The notes under the pieces were generated by a model. It saw nothing but the letters and a program-made list of their open reading frames with translations. It made no database searches and had not been told where the DNA came from. Shown one piece after another: positions 48,272 through 56,471 of a stretch of DNA of 64,000 nucleotides (positions are counted from its first letter, which is position 1; every line of letters starts with the position of its first letter). Location of the stretch: NCBI RefSeq assembly GCF_023502425.1, contig NZ_JAMFMA010000001.1, positions 930,001-994,000 on the forward strand, in the 5' to 3' direction. The position numbers and the translations under genes were made by a program. Origin of the DNA: Flagellimonas spongiicola. Lineage in GTDB: Bacteria > Bacteroidota > Bacteroidia > Flavobacteriales > Flavobacteriaceae.

Positions 48272-49303
48272 ATGAACATATGTTTTTTGATGTATCCATG
48301 GGATGAAATTGATCCCGAAAACGACACAAGTTTAGCATTGATTCATGAATGTGTGAAGCGAAAACATGGGGTGGCATTATGTACACCGGCTAATCTGACT
48401 ATAAGAAACAGCGTTACCAGTGCTTTTTGCACCGTTATCAATAGAATGGACAAGGTTTCCAGTAACCTGAAAACCTTTTATAAGCAAGCCTCAATTCGCG
48501 AGGAAATGTTGCCGTTGGCTGGTTTTGATGTCATATTTATGAGAGCTAACCCACCTTTGGACCCCTTGATGCTGAACTTTTTGGATTCAGTAAAGGATGA
48601 CGTCTTTATCATGAATTCTTTACAAGGGCTACGGGAAGCGAACAACAAACTGTATACGGCAGCCTTTGGGGACAGCCATAGCAACATAATTCCAGTTACC
48701 CACGTTTCCAAAAACAAAAGGTATCTCGTACAGCAAATAAAGGAATCTTCTGCTGATAAAATGATTCTGAAACCTTTGAATGGATTTGGGGGTTCTGGGG
48801 TCATTCTTATTGAGAAATCTGCCATGTCCAATATCAAATCCTTGTTGGATTTTTATGTGACCAATTCAGATGGCACCTCCAATTATGTTATCCTTCAGGA
48901 GTATATTGAAGGTGCAGATCAGGGTGATATTAGAGTTTTGATTTTGAATGGTGAACCCATAGGTGCGATGCGGCGAATCCCAGGTTCGGATGATCATCGC
49001 TCCAACGTCTCAGCAGGAGGGTCGGTTGCTAAACACACACTGACCAAGGAAGAAAAAGCGCTTTGCAAGCAAATAGGGCCCAAGTTGGTTAATGATGGTT
49101 TGTATTTTGTTGGAATTGATGTGATTGGCGGAAAACTTGTTGAGGTAAATGTAATGTCGCCAGGCGGAATAACTTATATGAACAAGGTATACAAAACCAA
49201 AATCCAATGCAAGGTCATTGATTTTGTTGAAAGTAAGGTTTTGGACAAGCTTCAAGCCTTTGATAGAAGATCACGATTACGCAGTGAGGTAGAGAATGCT
49301 TAG
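48272..49303 (+). CDS. Glutathione synthetase-like ATP-grasp ligase
   Basis: The product is 343 aa. The N-terminal domain has IFMRANPPLDPL, the GshB-type substrate loop. The ATP-grasp core shows DKMILKPLNGFGGSGVIL (Lys and Gly-rich loop), LQEYIEGADQGDIRVLILNG, and the C-terminal metal-ligand segment GKLVEVNVMSPGGITYMN. It should join two amino-acid-like substrates with ATP. No gshA partner is adjacent, so the true product may be another gamma-glutamyl or dipeptide compound. It overlaps the next gene by 8 bp and is the second gene of a putative four-gene unit. Confidence 0.85.
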   Translation: MNICFLMYPWDEIDPENDTSLALIHECVKRKHGVALCTPANLTIRNSVTSAFCTVINRMDKVSSNLKTFYKQASIREEMLPLAGFDVIFMRANPPLDPLMLNFLDSVKDDVFIMNSLQGLREANNKLYTAAFGDSHSNIIPVTHVSKNKRYLVQQIKESSADKMILKPLNGFGGSGVILIEKSAMSNIKSLLDFYVTNSDGTSNYVILQEYIEGADQGDIRVLILNGEPIGAMRRIPGSDDHRSNVSAGGSVAKHTLTKEEKALCKQIGPKLVNDGLYFVGIDVIGGKLVEVNVMSPGGITYMNKVYKTKIQCKVIDFVESKVLDKLQAFDRRSRLRSEVENA

Positions 49304-50123
49304 ATTATCCATTGATGAAATACTACAACATATTGAAACCGGAACGTGCTTCGAGACGGTTTCAGAGGATTATGCGTTTACCTTAAAAATTTCATCATAT
49401 GTACCTTTTATCTGTGGGGCGGTTCATGATGGACATCAATTCAGAAAATCCTTATGGGACAATTGTCTGCATAGCGAATTCGACCGTTGGTACGAAGAGG
49501 ATCCGTGTACCAAAGAAATGGTACAAAGTTTCCCCATAGTTTTGGCAGGATGTGACAGCAGGTTTGAATATGATTTAAACCGAGAACCACAAACTGCCAT
49601 TTTTGATACTGCTTGGGGAAAACAATTGTGGCGAACACCATTGCCCGAAACTGAAAAGGAGTACAGTTTAAAGAAACATGCAAATTTCTACAGAGTAGTA
49701 CAAGCATTGGTTCGTAAAATAGAATCCGAATTTGGAAAAGCCATTGTTTTTGATATGCATAGCTACAATTGGAAACGATGGGATCGACCTGTGCCCGCAT
49801 GGAATTTGGGTACTATTAATATAGATATGGACAGATACGGTGGTCTAGTAGAAAGTTGGAGGGATAAATTGGATGGCATTCAACTCCCAAATGGAATTGA
49901 CAATCAGGCCAAACTCAATGATACGTTCCATGGAAAGGGCTATTTTTTAAAATATATTACCGAGAACTTTGGAAATACCTTAGTTTTGGCGACCGAAATT
50001 TCCAAAATCTATTGCGACGAAAGTACCGGAATAATCTATCCGGAGGTGGTTAGATCTGTGGAAACACAATTAAAATCATTGATTCCAATAATGGTAGAGG
50101 AGTTTCAGTCATCAAGAATATGA
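49296..50123 (+). CDS. N-formylglutamate amidohydrolase-like zinc enzyme
   Basis: The product is 275 aa. Fold features include PFICGAVHDGHQFRKSLWD (the first His-rich loop), CDSRFEYDLNRE, IVFDMHSYN (a metal-binding His), WNLGTINIDMDR and LATEISKIYCDE near the C-terminus. Family members hydrolyse N-formyl or N-acyl amino acid amide bonds; HutG is the best known. There is no hut gene set in this window, so a role with the flanking ligase and peptidase is more plausible than histidine breakdown. It overlaps its neighbours by 8 and 4 bp. Confidence 0.82.
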   Translation: MLRLSIDEILQHIETGTCFETVSEDYAFTLKISSYVPFICGAVHDGHQFRKSLWDNCLHSEFDRWYEEDPCTKEMVQSFPIVLAGCDSRFEYDLNREPQTAIFDTAWGKQLWRTPLPETEKEYSLKKHANFYRVVQALVRKIESEFGKAIVFDMHSYNWKRWDRPVPAWNLGTINIDMDRYGGLVESWRDKLDGIQLPNGIDNQAKLNDTFHGKGYFLKYITENFGNTLVLATEISKIYCDESTGIIYPEVVRSVETQLKSLIPIMVEEFQSSRI

Positions 50124-51292
50124 TCGAGTCAGCGCAAATAGGGGAACTTGATAAGGAATATGGCCATCTGTTTGAGATTGATGCCAACCTTGATCGTTTG
50201 GTACGAAGGATTGAATTGTTGAGTTACATCAACCCTTTGAACATTGAAAAGGAAAAACAGCGTTTTTTTTCTTCTAAATACACCGCAGAGCCTAATTTTA
50301 AGTACCCAAAACTCAAGTTTGATCCATACAAGCTGCATCGTCTATTCTATTCGCAACGCCTAGAGCGAATTAAAGATGAAAAGATACGCCAGTTGTATCA
50401 AGAAGTGATTTATCACTATTCCAATATGATTCAATGCATTGAGACAATTGGAAAGGGGCGAAAATTCTATTACAACTCACTACGTGTTTATGGAACTCCA
50501 ATGGAGCGCGACGTTCAGAATGCAAGATATATTTTGCACTTTGAGGATGAGCCAGCTTCCTTGGATATGGAGAAAGTCTATACTGCTGAAGAAGCGCGAG
50601 ACTATTTTGAAGACTACGCAAAGCATTACGATTTTCCGCTGAACATAAAATTCTCAACACATATAGCTGCAGAGGCTATGGTCAGTAATAGTTCACAGTC
50701 GCTGCTGATCAAAAAGCATATAAAGTTCAGTAAGAATCAACTGTTAACCCTTGCAAACCATGAGATAGGCATTCATTTGGTTACTACATTCAATGGCCAG
50801 TTACAGCCTTTAAAAATATTTTCAAATGGATTACCCAAGAATGTGGAAACCCAAGAAGGCTTGGCGGTTTTTAGCGAATACATGGGTGGAGCATTGACCC
50901 TTAAACGATTAAAGGAATTGGCCTATCGTGTGTTGGCCGCAGACAGTTTGATCAAAGGTTACTCTTTCGCTGATACTTTTGATTTGATTCACGGGCAATA
51001 TAAATTGAATAGGGATGAAGCTTTTAGTATCACATTAAGGGCGCATCGTGGGGGTGGATTTACCAAGGACCGATTATACCTAAGCGGATTACGCAAGATC
51101 TACAAGCGGTATCAAAACGAAGAAAGCTTGGATATGCTCTTGTCTGGTAAGGTTGCTCTAGCAGATGAGGAAATGATTCGCTATTTAAGAACCAAAGGGT
51201 TGGCAGCACCCATAGCCCATAAAAGTTTGTCTTTCCAGCAGAAACTAAATACCAATCCCACATTGGATTTTATTCTGAATAATTTAAAGTAG
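50120..51292 (+). CDS. DUF1704 (QEGLA) metallocarboxypeptidase, MATCAP/TMCP-like
   Basis: The product is 390 aa. The zinc-site signature is NHEIGIH (His214, Glu215, His219, HExxxH), followed by the hallmark QEGLA at 245-249 (Glu246 as third ligand). This arrangement is shared with eukaryotic MATCAP/TMCP tyrosine and glutamate carboxypeptidases. A conserved RAHRGGGFTKDRLYLSGLR segment lies near residue 310. Bacterial members are listed as flavohemoglobin expression-modulating proteins but have no proven substrate. The first 4 bases overlap the amidohydrolase (ATGA), so all three genes should be translated together. Confidence 0.85.
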   Translation: MIESAQIGELDKEYGHLFEIDANLDRLVRRIELLSYINPLNIEKEKQRFFSSKYTAEPNFKYPKLKFDPYKLHRLFYSQRLERIKDEKIRQLYQEVIYHYSNMIQCIETIGKGRKFYYNSLRVYGTPMERDVQNARYILHFEDEPASLDMEKVYTAEEARDYFEDYAKHYDFPLNIKFSTHIAAEAMVSNSSQSLLIKKHIKFSKNQLLTLANHEIGIHLVTTFNGQLQPLKIFSNGLPKNVETQEGLAVFSEYMGGALTLKRLKELAYRVLAADSLIKGYSFADTFDLIHGQYKLNRDEAFSITLRAHRGGGFTKDRLYLSGLRKIYKRYQNEESLDMLLSGKVALADEEMIRYLRTKGLAAPIAHKSLSFQQKLNTNPTLDFILNNLK

Positions 51293-51529: not shown

Positions 51530-54500
51530 ATGAGCGACAAAAAATTGGTAATTCAAGCAACTATTGGCACACTATTGTTGCTGGTTGCACCAATGATTCC
51601 AATTCCTAGTGTAAATTTCTGGCTATTGGACTTATTTGGCAAATTCCACCCATTAGTGGTTCATTTACCAATTGGTTCGCTCTTGTGTTTGTTCATTCTG
51701 GAATTTTTAATTCCAAAATCCCAGATGGCCCAAATTCGCGGTGTAATCTTAAAGTTCATCATCGGCTCTGCATTTCTTGCTGTAATAGCCGGTGTCCTAT
51801 TAGCCGGTTCGGGATCATATGGTAGTGATGCCTTTGTGCTGCATAAATGGTTTGGTGTAGCCACAGCAATACTATGTGTTTGGTTGTATGTGCTTGATAG
51901 GCTGGGAAATAATCAATCTATTGGGAAATTTTCACTTTATCAATGCACCTTAACAATAAATGTTATCGTGTTAAGTATAGCCGGGCATTATGGAGGGTCT
52001 TTGACCCATGGCACGGATTATCTTACCAAAAGCCTTCCGGAAAGCGTACGCACTTTTTTTGGGGATGACCCATATGAACTTAAAGGTCTGGTGGCCATGA
52101 ACAATTCAAAGGTCAACAAAACCCTTGAAAGTTATAGTTATACCGATAACATACAACCGGTCTTAAAAAAATACTGTGTTGAATGTCATGGGCCAGAGGA
52201 GCAAAAAGCGGGATTGCGTATAGATGAGCTCAACCCGGATTTGATCAAAGGGCCGGATGCTTTTGCGTGGCGGGCTATGTTGGATATGATCAACAGTGGC
52301 GAGATGCCTCCGGAAGAGGAAGAACAACTATCAGATGAGGAACGCCGGTTATTAGTGGATTGGATTACAGCGACGGTGCAACATGCCATCAAAATAAAAA
52401 AATCAAGTCAGGCGGCCGTAATTCGAAGGTTGACCAAAAAGCAATACACCAATTCGCTTCAGGAGCTGTTGCAAATTAAAATGGATTTTGGTGATGTTCT
52501 ACCCGATGACGAAAAATCTGAAATGGGATTTAGTAACAACGGACATGAGCTACAGATTTCACCATTGCATATCGACTACTATAAAAAAATAGCCAGGGAA
52601 GCGTTGGACAAGGCCATCGTAACAACTGAAAAACCTAAATCCACCCATTATCGGGTTCAATTTGGATTGGGAATCGGGGAGGAATTGCCTTCTGCCATGA
52701 TTGGGGGATATCAAAGTGCACCTATCAATTCCAATGATTTTATTGTGGACATTCTAGATGCTGATGGTTTACCTATGCAACCAAAAGACAGTTTGGAAGA
52801 GGCTTATTATACAGAAGTAAAAAAGAATATAGGCGTTGGCATGCGCGGTTCACATTCAGATCGGTATGAAGTGGTAGAAGATGGTGTTATCCTTTACTCC
52901 GCCTTGCCTCATAAAGAAGTTAGTCCAAAATCGTGGCAGGGACCTTCACCCAACTTGAAACTTTTAGTCAAGGATTATTTTCCCATGGATGGTGATTTTG
53001 AGTTTCGGGTGAAGGCTTCCAAGGGCTACCACGAGCATGTGAAAAAAGAAGGACTTATTAGTTTAAGACGGACAGTACCTGCTGAAAACATGCAATCCAC
53101 CATTCACCTGCAAGCTCGGAAATTTACGAATCGACAAAATATGGTTTACCGTGGTAAATACCTTGCCTCGGAGGATTTGACCAATTACAGTTACGCGAAA
53201 GCTACATTTACTGCGCCTAAAACCGGCTATTACCAAATCGATTTCACACATCCGTATGCCGCGCAAGACGGGATGCCTTCCATTAATATGCGTTTGGATC
53301 AATTCCAAATTCAGGAACGACTGCATTTACAGCAACCTGAAGATGGGTCTTTGGATATGATAACACCCTTGACCATGGCTTATTTGGAAGAAGGGGAACA
53401 TGCTATTGAGATTGGCGGGCGCTTTTTTGTTGGCCTGGGTGAGTTAATCATTACCCCTTTTCCTGATGACCATCCCGTAGCACTTCAATTGGATAATGAA
53501 GAAGCGGAAAGCAAAAAGAAATACGATTTGGCTGCTCCCATAATGCGCGTGTTCGCGGGAACGCGAACCGATGATGGTATCGACTACAAAAACTTTGACG
53601 ACTACAGGAATGTTGTCAATACCGACCAACCAAAACAATATATATTCAGCGGTAGATTGGAAGATTTGCCTATTCCGGTAATTGACACCTTAGAAACCGA
53701 AATTTTGGCCAATATAATGGGCATGGGCGTCTGGAACGATTATTTGGTGAAAGATAATCGGGATTCTGGCCCTCCATTACTGGTACATGAGATTGAATTT
53801 GAGGCACCTTATCATCCCGTTTGGCCACCGACAAGTCATAGCGCTATTTTCATAGCATCGGAGGAAAAATCCAACAAGGAAGTATATACGCAACAAGTTC
53901 TTGCCAATTTTATGGAAAAGGCTTTTCGTAGACCACTGGATAAAGGTGAAGTGGAAACGTACATGGAATTTTGGCGCGCTATACGGAATGAGTACGTTTC
54001 CTATGAGGCTGGTGTAAAAGAGGTCTTGGTTGCCATTTTATGCTCCCCTAACTTTCTTTATTTGGCAGAACCAGAAGAAGGAACTTCAGATGATGAACGC
54101 GAGTATTTTTTAGCATCGCGCTTATCCTATTTTTTATGGGATTCACCACCGGATGAGGAACTCTTAACACTTGCTGATCGTGGCAAACTACATCGAAAAA
54201 AGGAGCTGAAGAGACAGTTGCAACGCATGTTGCAAGATGATAAGGTATGGGCCATGGTCCGTAACTTTTCAAAAGAATGGTTACGTATGGATCGTCATGA
54301 GACGATGAGTGCCAACGTAAACGAATATGAGGCATATACACGTTTTGTAAAGCGTGATATGACCGAAGAAACCTATCAATTTGTACATTATGTACTCAAT
54401 TGCAATATGTACTTAGGAAATCTGATAGAGTCGGATTTTGCAATGTTAAACCAAAACTTGGCCGAATTCTACGGCATCGAAGGGGTAAAAGGCAACCATT

Positions 54501-55111
54501 TTAGACCAGTGGCACTACCACCAAACTCCAAACGAGGCGGACTATTGTCCCAAGGTTCGTTTTTGAGTGGGCATTCTGATGGTACCCAAGCACATGCCAT
54601 AAAACGTGCCGTATGGTTGCGTTCCAAAATACTGGGAGATCGCCCGCCAGACCCTCCGCCAAATGTTCCGGAATTGGATCCTGAGACCCCGGGATTTGAA
54701 AAACTGACCTTAAAAGAACAATTGTTCCTGCATCGAAATAAGGTGTCCTGCATGGACTGTCATGCCAAAATAGATCCTTATGGGATTGTCTTTGAGAATT
54801 ACAATGCTGTAGGACTTTATCAGACAGTCGCACATAACGGAAACCCTATCGATACCAAAACAGAACTTCCAGACGGTCAGGTAGTTGATGGTGTTGACGA
54901 AATAAAAGCGTATATTCTAAATGAAAAACTTGATGACTTTACAAGATCATTGGTAAAACATTTATTCTCATATGCTATGGGCCGGGATGTCACCTTTGTG
55001 GATGAACCCGAAATTGAATCGATAGTTGCTGATATCAGAGCGGATGGTTATCGATTTCAATCTGTATTTGAACATATCATTACCAGCAAATCATTTATTG
55101 GAGATCTTTAA
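51530..55111 (+). CDS. Membrane-anchored DUF1592-type (Planctomycete-style) cytochrome protein
   Basis: The product is 1193 aa. About residues 1-165 form several transmembrane helices with KFHPLVVHLPIGS, a DUF2231-like module. A c-type heme motif CVECH (216-220) follows in a PSCyt1-like domain. Next come the DUF1587, DUF1592, DUF1595, DUF1588 and DUF1585-like segments typical of Planctomycetes and Verrucomicrobia, including EMPPEEE, RLTKKQYTNSLQELL, AFRRPLDKGEVETY, SRLSYFLWDSPPDEELL, and a second CxxCH (CMDCH, about 1074-1078). Homologues are linked to extracellular polymer or phenolic oxidation, but biochemical proof is lacking. The fused N-terminal membrane domain would hold the large domain at the cell envelope. 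Confidence 0.85.
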   Translation: MSDKKLVIQATIGTLLLLVAPMIPIPSVNFWLLDLFGKFHPLVVHLPIGSLLCLFILEFLIPKSQMAQIRGVILKFIIGSAFLAVIAGVLLAGSGSYGSDAFVLHKWFGVATAILCVWLYVLDRLGNNQSIGKFSLYQCTLTINVIVLSIAGHYGGSLTHGTDYLTKSLPESVRTFFGDDPYELKGLVAMNNSKVNKTLESYSYTDNIQPVLKKYCVECHGPEEQKAGLRIDELNPDLIKGPDAFAWRAMLDMINSGEMPPEEEEQLSDEERRLLVDWITATVQHAIKIKKSSQAAVIRRLTKKQYTNSLQELLQIKMDFGDVLPDDEKSEMGFSNNGHELQISPLHIDYYKKIAREALDKAIVTTEKPKSTHYRVQFGLGIGEELPSAMIGGYQSAPINSNDFIVDILDADGLPMQPKDSLEEAYYTEVKKNIGVGMRGSHSDRYEVVEDGVILYSALPHKEVSPKSWQGPSPNLKLLVKDYFPMDGDFEFRVKASKGYHEHVKKEGLISLRRTVPAENMQSTIHLQARKFTNRQNMVYRGKYLASEDLTNYSYAKATFTAPKTGYYQIDFTHPYAAQDGMPSINMRLDQFQIQERLHLQQPEDGSLDMITPLTMAYLEEGEHAIEIGGRFFVGLGELIITPFPDDHPVALQLDNEEAESKKKYDLAAPIMRVFAGTRTDDGIDYKNFDDYRNVVNTDQPKQYIFSGRLEDLPIPVIDTLETEILANIMGMGVWNDYLVKDNRDSGPPLLVHEIEFEAPYHPVWPPTSHSAIFIASEEKSNKEVYTQQVLANFMEKAFRRPLDKGEVETYMEFWRAIRNEYVSYEAGVKEVLVAILCSPNFLYLAEPEEGTSDDEREYFLASRLSYFLWDSPPDEELLTLADRGKLHRKKELKRQLQRMLQDDKVWAMVRNFSKEWLRMDRHETMSANVNEYEAYTRFVKRDMTEETYQFVHYVLNCNMYLGNLIESDFAMLNQNLAEFYGIEGVKGNHFRPVALPPNSKRGGLLSQGSFLSGHSDGTQAHAIKRAVWLRSKILGDRPPDPPPNVPELDPETPGFEKLTLKEQLFLHRNKVSCMDCHAKIDPYGIVFENYNAVGLYQTVAHNGNPIDTKTELPDGQVVDGVDEIKAYILNEKLDDFTRSLVKHLFSYAMGRDVTFVDEPEIESIVADIRADGYRFQSVFEHIITSKSFIGDL

Positions 55112-55121
55112 AACATAAGTT

Positions 55122-56471
55122 ATGGCTAGAAAATCATGGCACCTGGACCGAAGAACCTTTTTAAAAGGTTTGGGCGTTACCTGCACCATTCCGTACATGG
55201 AAGCAATGGGTATGGGAACTGTATTCAAACCCAGTAGTCCGGAATCTGCAATGAAGCGTCTGTGTTTTGTGTACTTTCCTAATGGGGTAGGGTTACCTCC
55301 AGAAGAAAGTCACTACCATAAAAAATGGAGCTGGTTTCCAATTGGTGAAGGCAAGGACTACCAATTTACCCAAACTTTGAAACCACTGGAGTCCCATCGG
55401 GAAGACTTATCAATCCTTGGCGGATTGAGCCACCCGAAAAGTCGTGCATTACTAGGGCATTTAGCTGGAGATACTTGGCTTACTGGCGGAGATGTACGCG
55501 GTGCAGAGTATATGAACAGTATTTCTCTAGATCAAGTGGTCGCCCAGAAGTTTGGCAAACACACACGCTATCCCTATTTGGCCTTATCCACGGACGGTGG
55601 AATTGGATACAAATCCAGGGTTTCAACCTTGTCTTTTGATCTCTCGGGTAAACCCATCCCAACCGAGCATCGGCACCGTGAGATATTTGAACGCTATTTT
55701 GCTCCAGGAGCAGGGGGAACTACAGAAGCCAGACGTAAGAGTATCCAACAAGATAAAAAAATCGTAGACCTGATTTTGGAGGATAGTAAACGCCTGCACC
55801 GCAGGTTAGGGCAACACGACAAAGCTAAGATGGATGAGTACCTGACTTCATTGAGTTCTGTAGAAGACCAAGTTAAGCGTAATGAACAATGGCTGAATAT
55901 CCCAATGAAGGATTTTGATGCAAGTCACTTGAATTTCAATGCTGATGTAAAGGTAGACCCAGAGGCCTATATAAGAACCACTTTTGATTTGATGGTATTG
56001 GGAATGCAGGTTGACCTTACTCGTGTAATGACTTATATGATTGCTAGGGAAGATGGTTTAGGATTAGGGGAGAACTTCCCAAAACTGGCCTTGGGACTGA
56101 GCAAAGGACACCATACGATTAGTCATGATTTGACCACCGGTCACTGGGAGGAGTGGGGTAGGTACGACCAATGGCTGTCCAAGCAGTATTCATACTTCTT
56201 AGATCGAATGAAAAACACGCATGATGAGCATGGTTCATTGTTGGAAAACACTATGGTGCTCTATGGAAGTGCATGCAGTACCACACATAATGCCATCAAT
56301 TATCCGTTGGTGTTAGCGGGTGGTTCCAAGATGGGCATAAATCATGGTTCGTATCAAAAATTTGATGAAGAGCCTATGTGCAATCTTTTTGTCAATATGT
56401 TGAATCGTCTTGGAATAGAATCTGAAAGTTTCTCGGATAGTACGGGTACCTTGAATACGAATATTCTTTAA
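55122..56471 (+). CDS. DUF1552 family protein with Tat-like signal
   Basis: The product is 449 aa. The N-terminus LDRRTFLKGLGVT is a twin-arginine signal, implying folded export with a cofactor. Family features are RLCFVYFPNGVG, LTGGD, ISLDQVVAQKFGKHTRYPYLALS and YGSACSTTHNAINYPLVLAGG near the end. It follows the DUF1592 gene by 10 bp, the usual partnership for these two families. Catalytic residues are not obvious to me. The function is unknown; an oxidoreductase or alkaline-phosphatase-like fold is often suggested for the family. Confidence 0.85.
   Translation: MARKSWHLDRRTFLKGLGVTCTIPYMEAMGMGTVFKPSSPESAMKRLCFVYFPNGVGLPPEESHYHKKWSWFPIGEGKDYQFTQTLKPLESHREDLSILGGLSHPKSRALLGHLAGDTWLTGGDVRGAEYMNSISLDQVVAQKFGKHTRYPYLALSTDGGIGYKSRVSTLSFDLSGKPIPTEHRHREIFERYFAPGAGGTTEARRKSIQQDKKIVDLILEDSKRLHRRLGQHDKAKMDEYLTSLSSVEDQVKRNEQWLNIPMKDFDASHLNFNADVKVDPEAYIRTTFDLMVLGMQVDLTRVMTYMIAREDGLGLGENFPKLALGLSKGHHTISHDLTTGHWEEWGRYDQWLSKQYSYFLDRMKNTHDEHGSLLENTMVLYGSACSTTHNAINYPLVLAGGSKMGINHGSYQKFDEEPMCNLFVNMLNRLGIESESFSDSTGTLNTNIL

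Follow-up and report, generated by a model that had tools for sequence, protein, structure and literature searches.

An ATP-grasp ligase gene overlapping genes for two probable zinc hydrolases, one of the MATCAP family, as a conserved cassette in Bacteroidota

What might a bacterium make, and then trim, with an ATP-dependent ligase and two zinc hydrolases encoded in one run of overlapping genes, when one of the hydrolases resembles the human enzyme MATCAP? The question is raised by a 64,000-nucleotide stretch of the Flagellimonas spongiicola genome (contig NZ_JAMFMA010000001.1, positions 930,001 to 994,000; here called the window), in which three genes follow each other on the forward strand: an ATP-grasp carboxylate-amine ligase related to GshB (ATPG, hereafter the ligase; 48272..49303, 343 aa), a zinc amidohydrolase of the N-formylglutamate amidohydrolase family (FG; 49296..50123, 275 aa) and a zinc metallocarboxypeptidase of the MATCAP family (MAT; 50120..51292, 390 aa). 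Re-examination of the window reproduced exactly the open reading frames (ORFs) of a preliminary description of this DNA, together with its overlaps of 8 bp (ligase/FG) and 4 bp (FG/MAT) and its HExxxH (residues 214-219) and QEGLA (245-249) motifs in MAT. The three family assignments made there were also borne out, by matches above cut-off to PF02955, PF02951 and NF009110 for the ligase, to PF05013 for FG and to PF08014 for MAT.

Two arrangements of these genes recur. Type A, seen in the window, has the order ligase-FG-MAT with a short form of MAT, while type B has the order FG-long MAT-ligase, the long MAT carrying an additional N-terminal domain of about 235 residues. For comparison we used the best 80 of 570 confirmed related stretches, all of them type A and from Flavobacteriaceae or unplaced Bacteroidia; the closest kin of the window in this comparison are Flavobacteriaceae. 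With gene starts set by alignment to the window proteins, the ligase/FG overlap is again 8 bp in 43 of the 69 loci that have both genes, and FG and MAT overlap by some length in 45 of the 69; gene overlap in the related loci is beyond chance.

The association of the ligase with MATCAP is real. Among 395 Bacteroidota genomes, the window's own included, PF08014 was present in 19 and a GSH-S_ATP domain at full score (at least 167 bits, with 97 as the next lower value) in 20. Of the 19 MATCAP genomes, 18 have the ligase at the MATCAP locus itself. Only two of the 376 genomes without MATCAP (G076 and G194) contain a full-score GSH-S_ATP domain, in each case separated from a GCS2 gene by a single gene. 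The co-occurrence that the preliminary description had noticed at a single locus is thus above chance in the 395 genomes. In the one remaining MATCAP genome (G186) the MATCAP gene is solitary and divergent. The third partner is less constant: an N-formylglutamate amidohydrolase-family gene (FGase), which 49 of the 395 genomes possess, is part of the MATCAP locus in 15 of the 18 genomes with the ligase, and in the other three (G053, G367 and G273) an acylase of the AstE/AspA family (PF24827) adjoins the ligase in its place, as it does at a second locus of Galbibacter marinus (L139); in L035 the acylase gene is on the opposite strand. The proposal of a three-gene unit therefore stands as a conserved association and not as an obligatory trio, since an AstE/AspA enzyme can take the place of FG and MATCAP persists without ligase and FG.

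The kinship of MAT with human MATCAP, suggested by the preliminary description, holds both in sequence and in predicted fold. MAT matches PF08014 (DUF1704, a Pfam family now named MATCAP) over its full length at 358 bits against a cut-off of 27, and human MATCAP is found with E 2e-6 by a single-sequence comparison and, as the sole significant solved structure, with E 2e-12 by a profile search. A model built from the window protein and its relatives (mean pLDDT 93.2) aligns with human MATCAP (7z6s/7z5g) over 293 residues at Z 25.9 and rmsd 2.8 (Foldseek E 1.7e-9), followed by a DUF885 protein at Z 16.2 and M32 carboxypeptidases at about 11-12. Residues H214, E215, H219 and E246 are invariant in two alignments of 13 and 33 sequences; the first three belong to the HExxxH metal site of MAT (HEIGIH, 50759..50776), and E246, within QEGLA (50852..50866), is the putative third metal ligand, this motif aligning with the EEG region of human MATCAP, to which the accessible text of PMC10499314 assigns the same putative role. 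MAT and MATCAP/TMCP (KIAA0895L, KIAA0895) thus have in common the Pfam family, HExxxH with [EQ]EG, an F[ST]KD..YL.G block and the fold, while MAT is only 22% identical, has QEG in place of EEG, is not known to act on tubulin and lies in an operon with a ligase and FG. The FTKD block pattern was not matched in three of the 80 MAT relatives (L094, L096 and L108). MAT scores 318.8 with TIGR02421 (QEGLA hypothetical equivalog), below the cut-off of 338.65, which an FG-MAT fusion protein from Photobacterium passes at 448; bacterial MATCAP proteins carry the database name 'flavohemoglobin expression-modulating'. From its family we infer that MAT is a carboxypeptidase.

FG matches PF05013 at 55.9 bits (cut-off 28.9), and a sequence search found no solved structure for either FG or the FG of type B loci. 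Its model, built in the same way (mean pLDDT 92.5), is closest to the N-formylglutamate amidohydrolases 2q7s (Z 23.4) and 2odf (Z 21.6), with further likeness to M14 carboxypeptidases (Z 10.4-12.2), to AstE (1yw4, Z 10.7) and to a phage poly-gamma-glutamate hydrolase (Z 10.6). The AstE/AspA acylases that adjoin the ligase where FG is missing form a distinct sequence family. The operon thus combines an ATP-grasp ligase with FG and MAT, both probably zinc hydrolases but unlike in fold. Despite its likeness in family and predicted fold to N-formylglutamate amidohydrolases, FG has no NCBIfam match and lies outside a hut context. The earlier remark that hut genes are missing is true at the locus and not in the genome, where hutH, hutI and hutU occur together with an arginase-family hutG on another contig (names read from Pfam matches and gene order). 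Because that separate operon has its own arginase-family gene, FG is not needed for histidine degradation, and we rejected it as the hut deformylase. In a separate observation, a GCS2-family ligase adjoins an FGase at three places (G186:C3:209438-211257, G211:C5:281408-283239 and G171:C42:9793-11599), perhaps a second amide ligase/hydrolase module.

The ligase carries both glutathione-synthetase Pfam domains and aligns over its full length with E. coli-type GshB (1gsa, E 8e-40), which raises the question of whether the cassette simply makes glutathione. It differs from that enzyme in scoring 235 with TIGR01380 (glut_syn), below the cut-off of 299, and belongs to the NF009110/PRK12458 subfamily, whose cut-off of 408 it passes at 470.3; all five cassette ligases scanned, this one included, score 436-501, and the single scanned GshB-type protein near a GCS2 gene scores 194 and fails. 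The motifs MRKDPP and SPTG are altered in all 23 cassette ligases aligned (the window ligase reads SPGG at residues 296-299, 49157..49168, in the alignment of the 23 with L140 and L141), and both are kept in L140 and L141, GshB-type proteins encoded one gene away from GCS2, the intervening gene in L140 being a DNase II homologue. The absence of gshA beside the ligase, noted earlier, extends to the whole genome for the two families searched, PF04107 and PF04262, other gshA-like families lying outside that search. Since the window's genome has neither, plain glutathione synthesis by the cassette is unlikely, and the name 'glutathione synthetase' that comes with NF009110 is inherited. The same two families are both lacking in 13 of the 19 MATCAP genomes, the window's included, and none of the 21 genomes tested for PF04262 has it. 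Where gshA is absent, these considerations argue that cassette ligases of the NF009110 subfamily do not make ordinary glutathione.

A glutathione-like tripeptide, serving as an alternative low-molecular-weight thiol whose dipeptide precursor is supplied by another route, would also call for a GshB-related ligase, and a rhodanese gene lies between ligase and FG in eight of the 80 loci. This clue to thiol chemistry is weakened because rhodanese also lies beside the neighbouring symporter (described below) in four of seven regions that lack the cassette (L133, L136, L137 and L138). With both tested gshA families missing from the genome and the two GshB motifs altered throughout, we regard a thiol product as distinctly improbable.

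Our preferred explanation, to which we give about an even chance, is that the cassette serves to build and trim a conjugate in which an acidic amino acid is held by an amide bond, most probably a small peptide metabolite distinct from ordinary glutathione. The NF009110 ATP-grasp enzyme would activate a carboxylate with ATP and couple an amino acid to it; the M14-like zinc amidohydrolase (FGase, or an AstE/AspA-type enzyme in some relatives) would cut the amide between an acyl group and an acidic amino acid, whether to provide the amine or as an editing step on the product; and the MATCAP enzyme would take off the C-terminal residue, so that the product is trimmed or recycled. In its favour we count the co-occurrence set out above, the changed ligase motifs, the joint absence of ligase and FG, and the FG-MAT fusions, hybrid loci, plasmid-borne trios and P. 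damselae induction described below. On this view bacterial MATCAP proteins could be tested as the enzymes that trim the product of an amide-ligation module.

The conjugate could instead be a protein. In such a cycle the ligase would extend a protein tail by an acidic or aromatic amino acid, in the manner of RimK or tubulin tyrosine ligase, with MAT and FG removing it. The predicted fold of FG is related to M14 carboxypeptidases, which we take to be the class of the CCP deglutamylases, and the ligase also matches RimK models. MAT, for its part, is related at the level of fold to MATCAP, an enzyme that takes both Tyr and Glu off tubulin tails according to the accessible part of PMC10499314, and a rimK gene was strongly induced in Photobacterium damselae in the portion of PMC10308900 available. 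Against this, the ligase scores higher with GshB-type than with RimK models, and the only match to TTL (PF03133) is sub-threshold, at E 0.13 for one type-B ligase. The families of FG and AstE/AspA act on small N-acyl amino acids. A protein target was not found. Of 1372 short ORFs lying up to 700 bp before the ligase or after MAT, the 25 most recurrent ones listed are all upstream on the opposite strand and resemble an ORF antisense to the symporter; they include no conserved short ORF that goes with the cassette, and no candidate precursor of a ribosomally synthesised and post-translationally modified peptide (RiPP) such as a graspetide. Taken together, a protein tag seems to us rather unlikely.

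A wider version of this idea is suggested by the tubulin code. Tubulin ligases and CCP deglutamylases are enzyme classes matching the ATP-grasp ligase and the M14-fold hydrolase, so that, with MATCAP, tubulin tails are written and erased by the same three kinds of enzyme as are found in the cassette. It is conceivable, and in our view improbable, that the cassette represents a bacterial reversible C-terminal amino-acid tagging cycle, an older version from which MATCAP entered eukaryotes. The cassette in any case offers a bacterial place in which to seek the origin of an enzyme family so far known for cutting tubulin tails.

Several observations weigh against the small-conjugate explanation that we prefer, or against the strength of its support. 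The Fisher p of 6e-28 for ligase/MATCAP co-occurrence ignores kinship among the genomes, and the first co-occurrence pass scored no more than eight candidates in some of them. The ligase retains GshB-like features, narrowly passing the GshB model NF003573 (280 against a cut-off of 272), and PF04107 occurs elsewhere in the genome in five of the 18 ligase-bearing genomes, strongly in three (222-223 bits) and at lower scores, still above cut-off, in two (71-77 bits). Moreover, MAT can stand alone. Ligase and FG are both present in 69 of the 80 type-A loci, and in one more FG is followed by a contig end before the ligase; in the remaining ten MAT is kept without either. (The FG reading frame of L102 is short, and a contig end cuts the ligase of L109.) On the tree the state lacking ligase and FG requires five gains or losses, four of them forced by well-supported branches, and loss is the simpler direction because 69 of the 80 loci have both genes. 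Solitary MAT forms also exist (L020 and L121).

The two genes are missing jointly in all ten loci not cut by a contig end; a full-score ligase is lacking from nine of those genomes and occurs in the other at an additional locus of type B. Each of the ten remaining MATs keeps HExxxH and QEGLA intact. Ligase and FG therefore seem mutually dependent, whereas MAT is partly independent and can do work of its own in their absence, which counts against a strict three-enzyme cycle.

The type A and type B arrangements behave as if they were interchangeable, since in two hybrid loci (L026 and L027) a type-A ligase and FG are followed by a type-B MAT and ligase. These loci (L026:7528-13224 and L027:5478-10378) contain two ATP-grasp ligases in one gene run. 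FG and MAT are also found fused, in L025 (by Pfam) and on a Photobacterium plasmid, where the FG-like N-terminus is 41% identical. The N-terminal 235 or so residues of long MATs (for example L027:7442-9301 and L028:7955-9781) have no Pfam match; by hhalign they match type-A FG with prob 20.8 and E 0.001 (ligase control 0.15) and type-B FG with prob only 1.4, so this region may be a degenerate FG domain.

Evidence from beyond the phylum comes from plasmid records, of which 127 have a MAT match and eight were examined. Ligase, FG and MAT are all annotated in three of the eight (Aminobacter, Pararhizobium and Shinella), and an ORF search found the trio in two unannotated records (S. meliloti 1021 and Photobacterium, the latter with FG fused to MAT). 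The S. meliloti ml21 plasmid has FG and MAT with no annotated ligase, the gene tables of these records being incomplete, and MAT is annotated without the other two on the Pseudoalteromonas and Phyllobacterium plasmids, as a short protein in the latter. Rhizobial plasmids have the type B arrangement. On the Pseudoalteromonas plasmid, the solitary QEGLA protein (L121:5959-7239) lies between betaine-synthesis and arginine-catabolism genes and adjoins DUF3081. In P. damselae at 1% NaCl, RS17020 (GshB) and RS17025 (the QEGLA protein) were up 38-fold and 28-fold, respectively, in the available part of PMC10308900, which treats this GshB as a glutathione synthetase; from the consecutive tags and the Photobacterium GJ3 plasmid we infer that the two genes are adjacent. 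Our literature search, which did not reach the amidoligase survey of Iyer et al. 2009, found no description of the three-gene operon; the accessible text of PMC4431377 cites that survey on ATP-grasp enzymes that ligate peptide-like bonds and on how these are linked to other ligases.

Upstream of the cassette lies a dicarboxylate/glutamate-type symporter gene (PF00375; 46922..48250, forward strand), which the preliminary description had counted towards the pathway. Its position, ending 21 bp before the ligase, was confirmed; its membership was not, because the symporter also occurs without the cassette. We searched 10 MATCAP-less genomes of the family and examined seven regions, leaving out G021, G057 and G170, which have distant symporters only. 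In four of the seven the symporter adjoins aroC or is one gene removed from it, and in L132 the order is aroC-SDF-DCC1-MutS2 with no gene between. In 15 of the 80 related loci the retrieved sequence contains no symporter, a contig edge cutting some of these short. The position of the symporter is thus independent of the cassette, and we rejected it as a pathway member, treating it as a conserved neighbour; the cassette was inserted beside the symporter or lost from there.

This bears on a further explanation, in which FG (or AstE/AspA) and MAT degrade imported peptides and the ligase serves storage or re-use. Such scavenging would suit the loci where MAT lies beside the symporter and the ligase is absent. 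Given that symporter position does not follow the cassette and that plain degradation offers no role for an ATP-dependent ligase, we consider it very improbable.

A role in defence was not indicated, as PADLOC models gave zero families for ligase, FG and MAT. Downstream of the cassette, at 51530-56471, the gene for a large cytochrome/PSD-domain protein precedes one for an HXXSHH (DUF1552) protein, a combination known chiefly from Planctomycetes.

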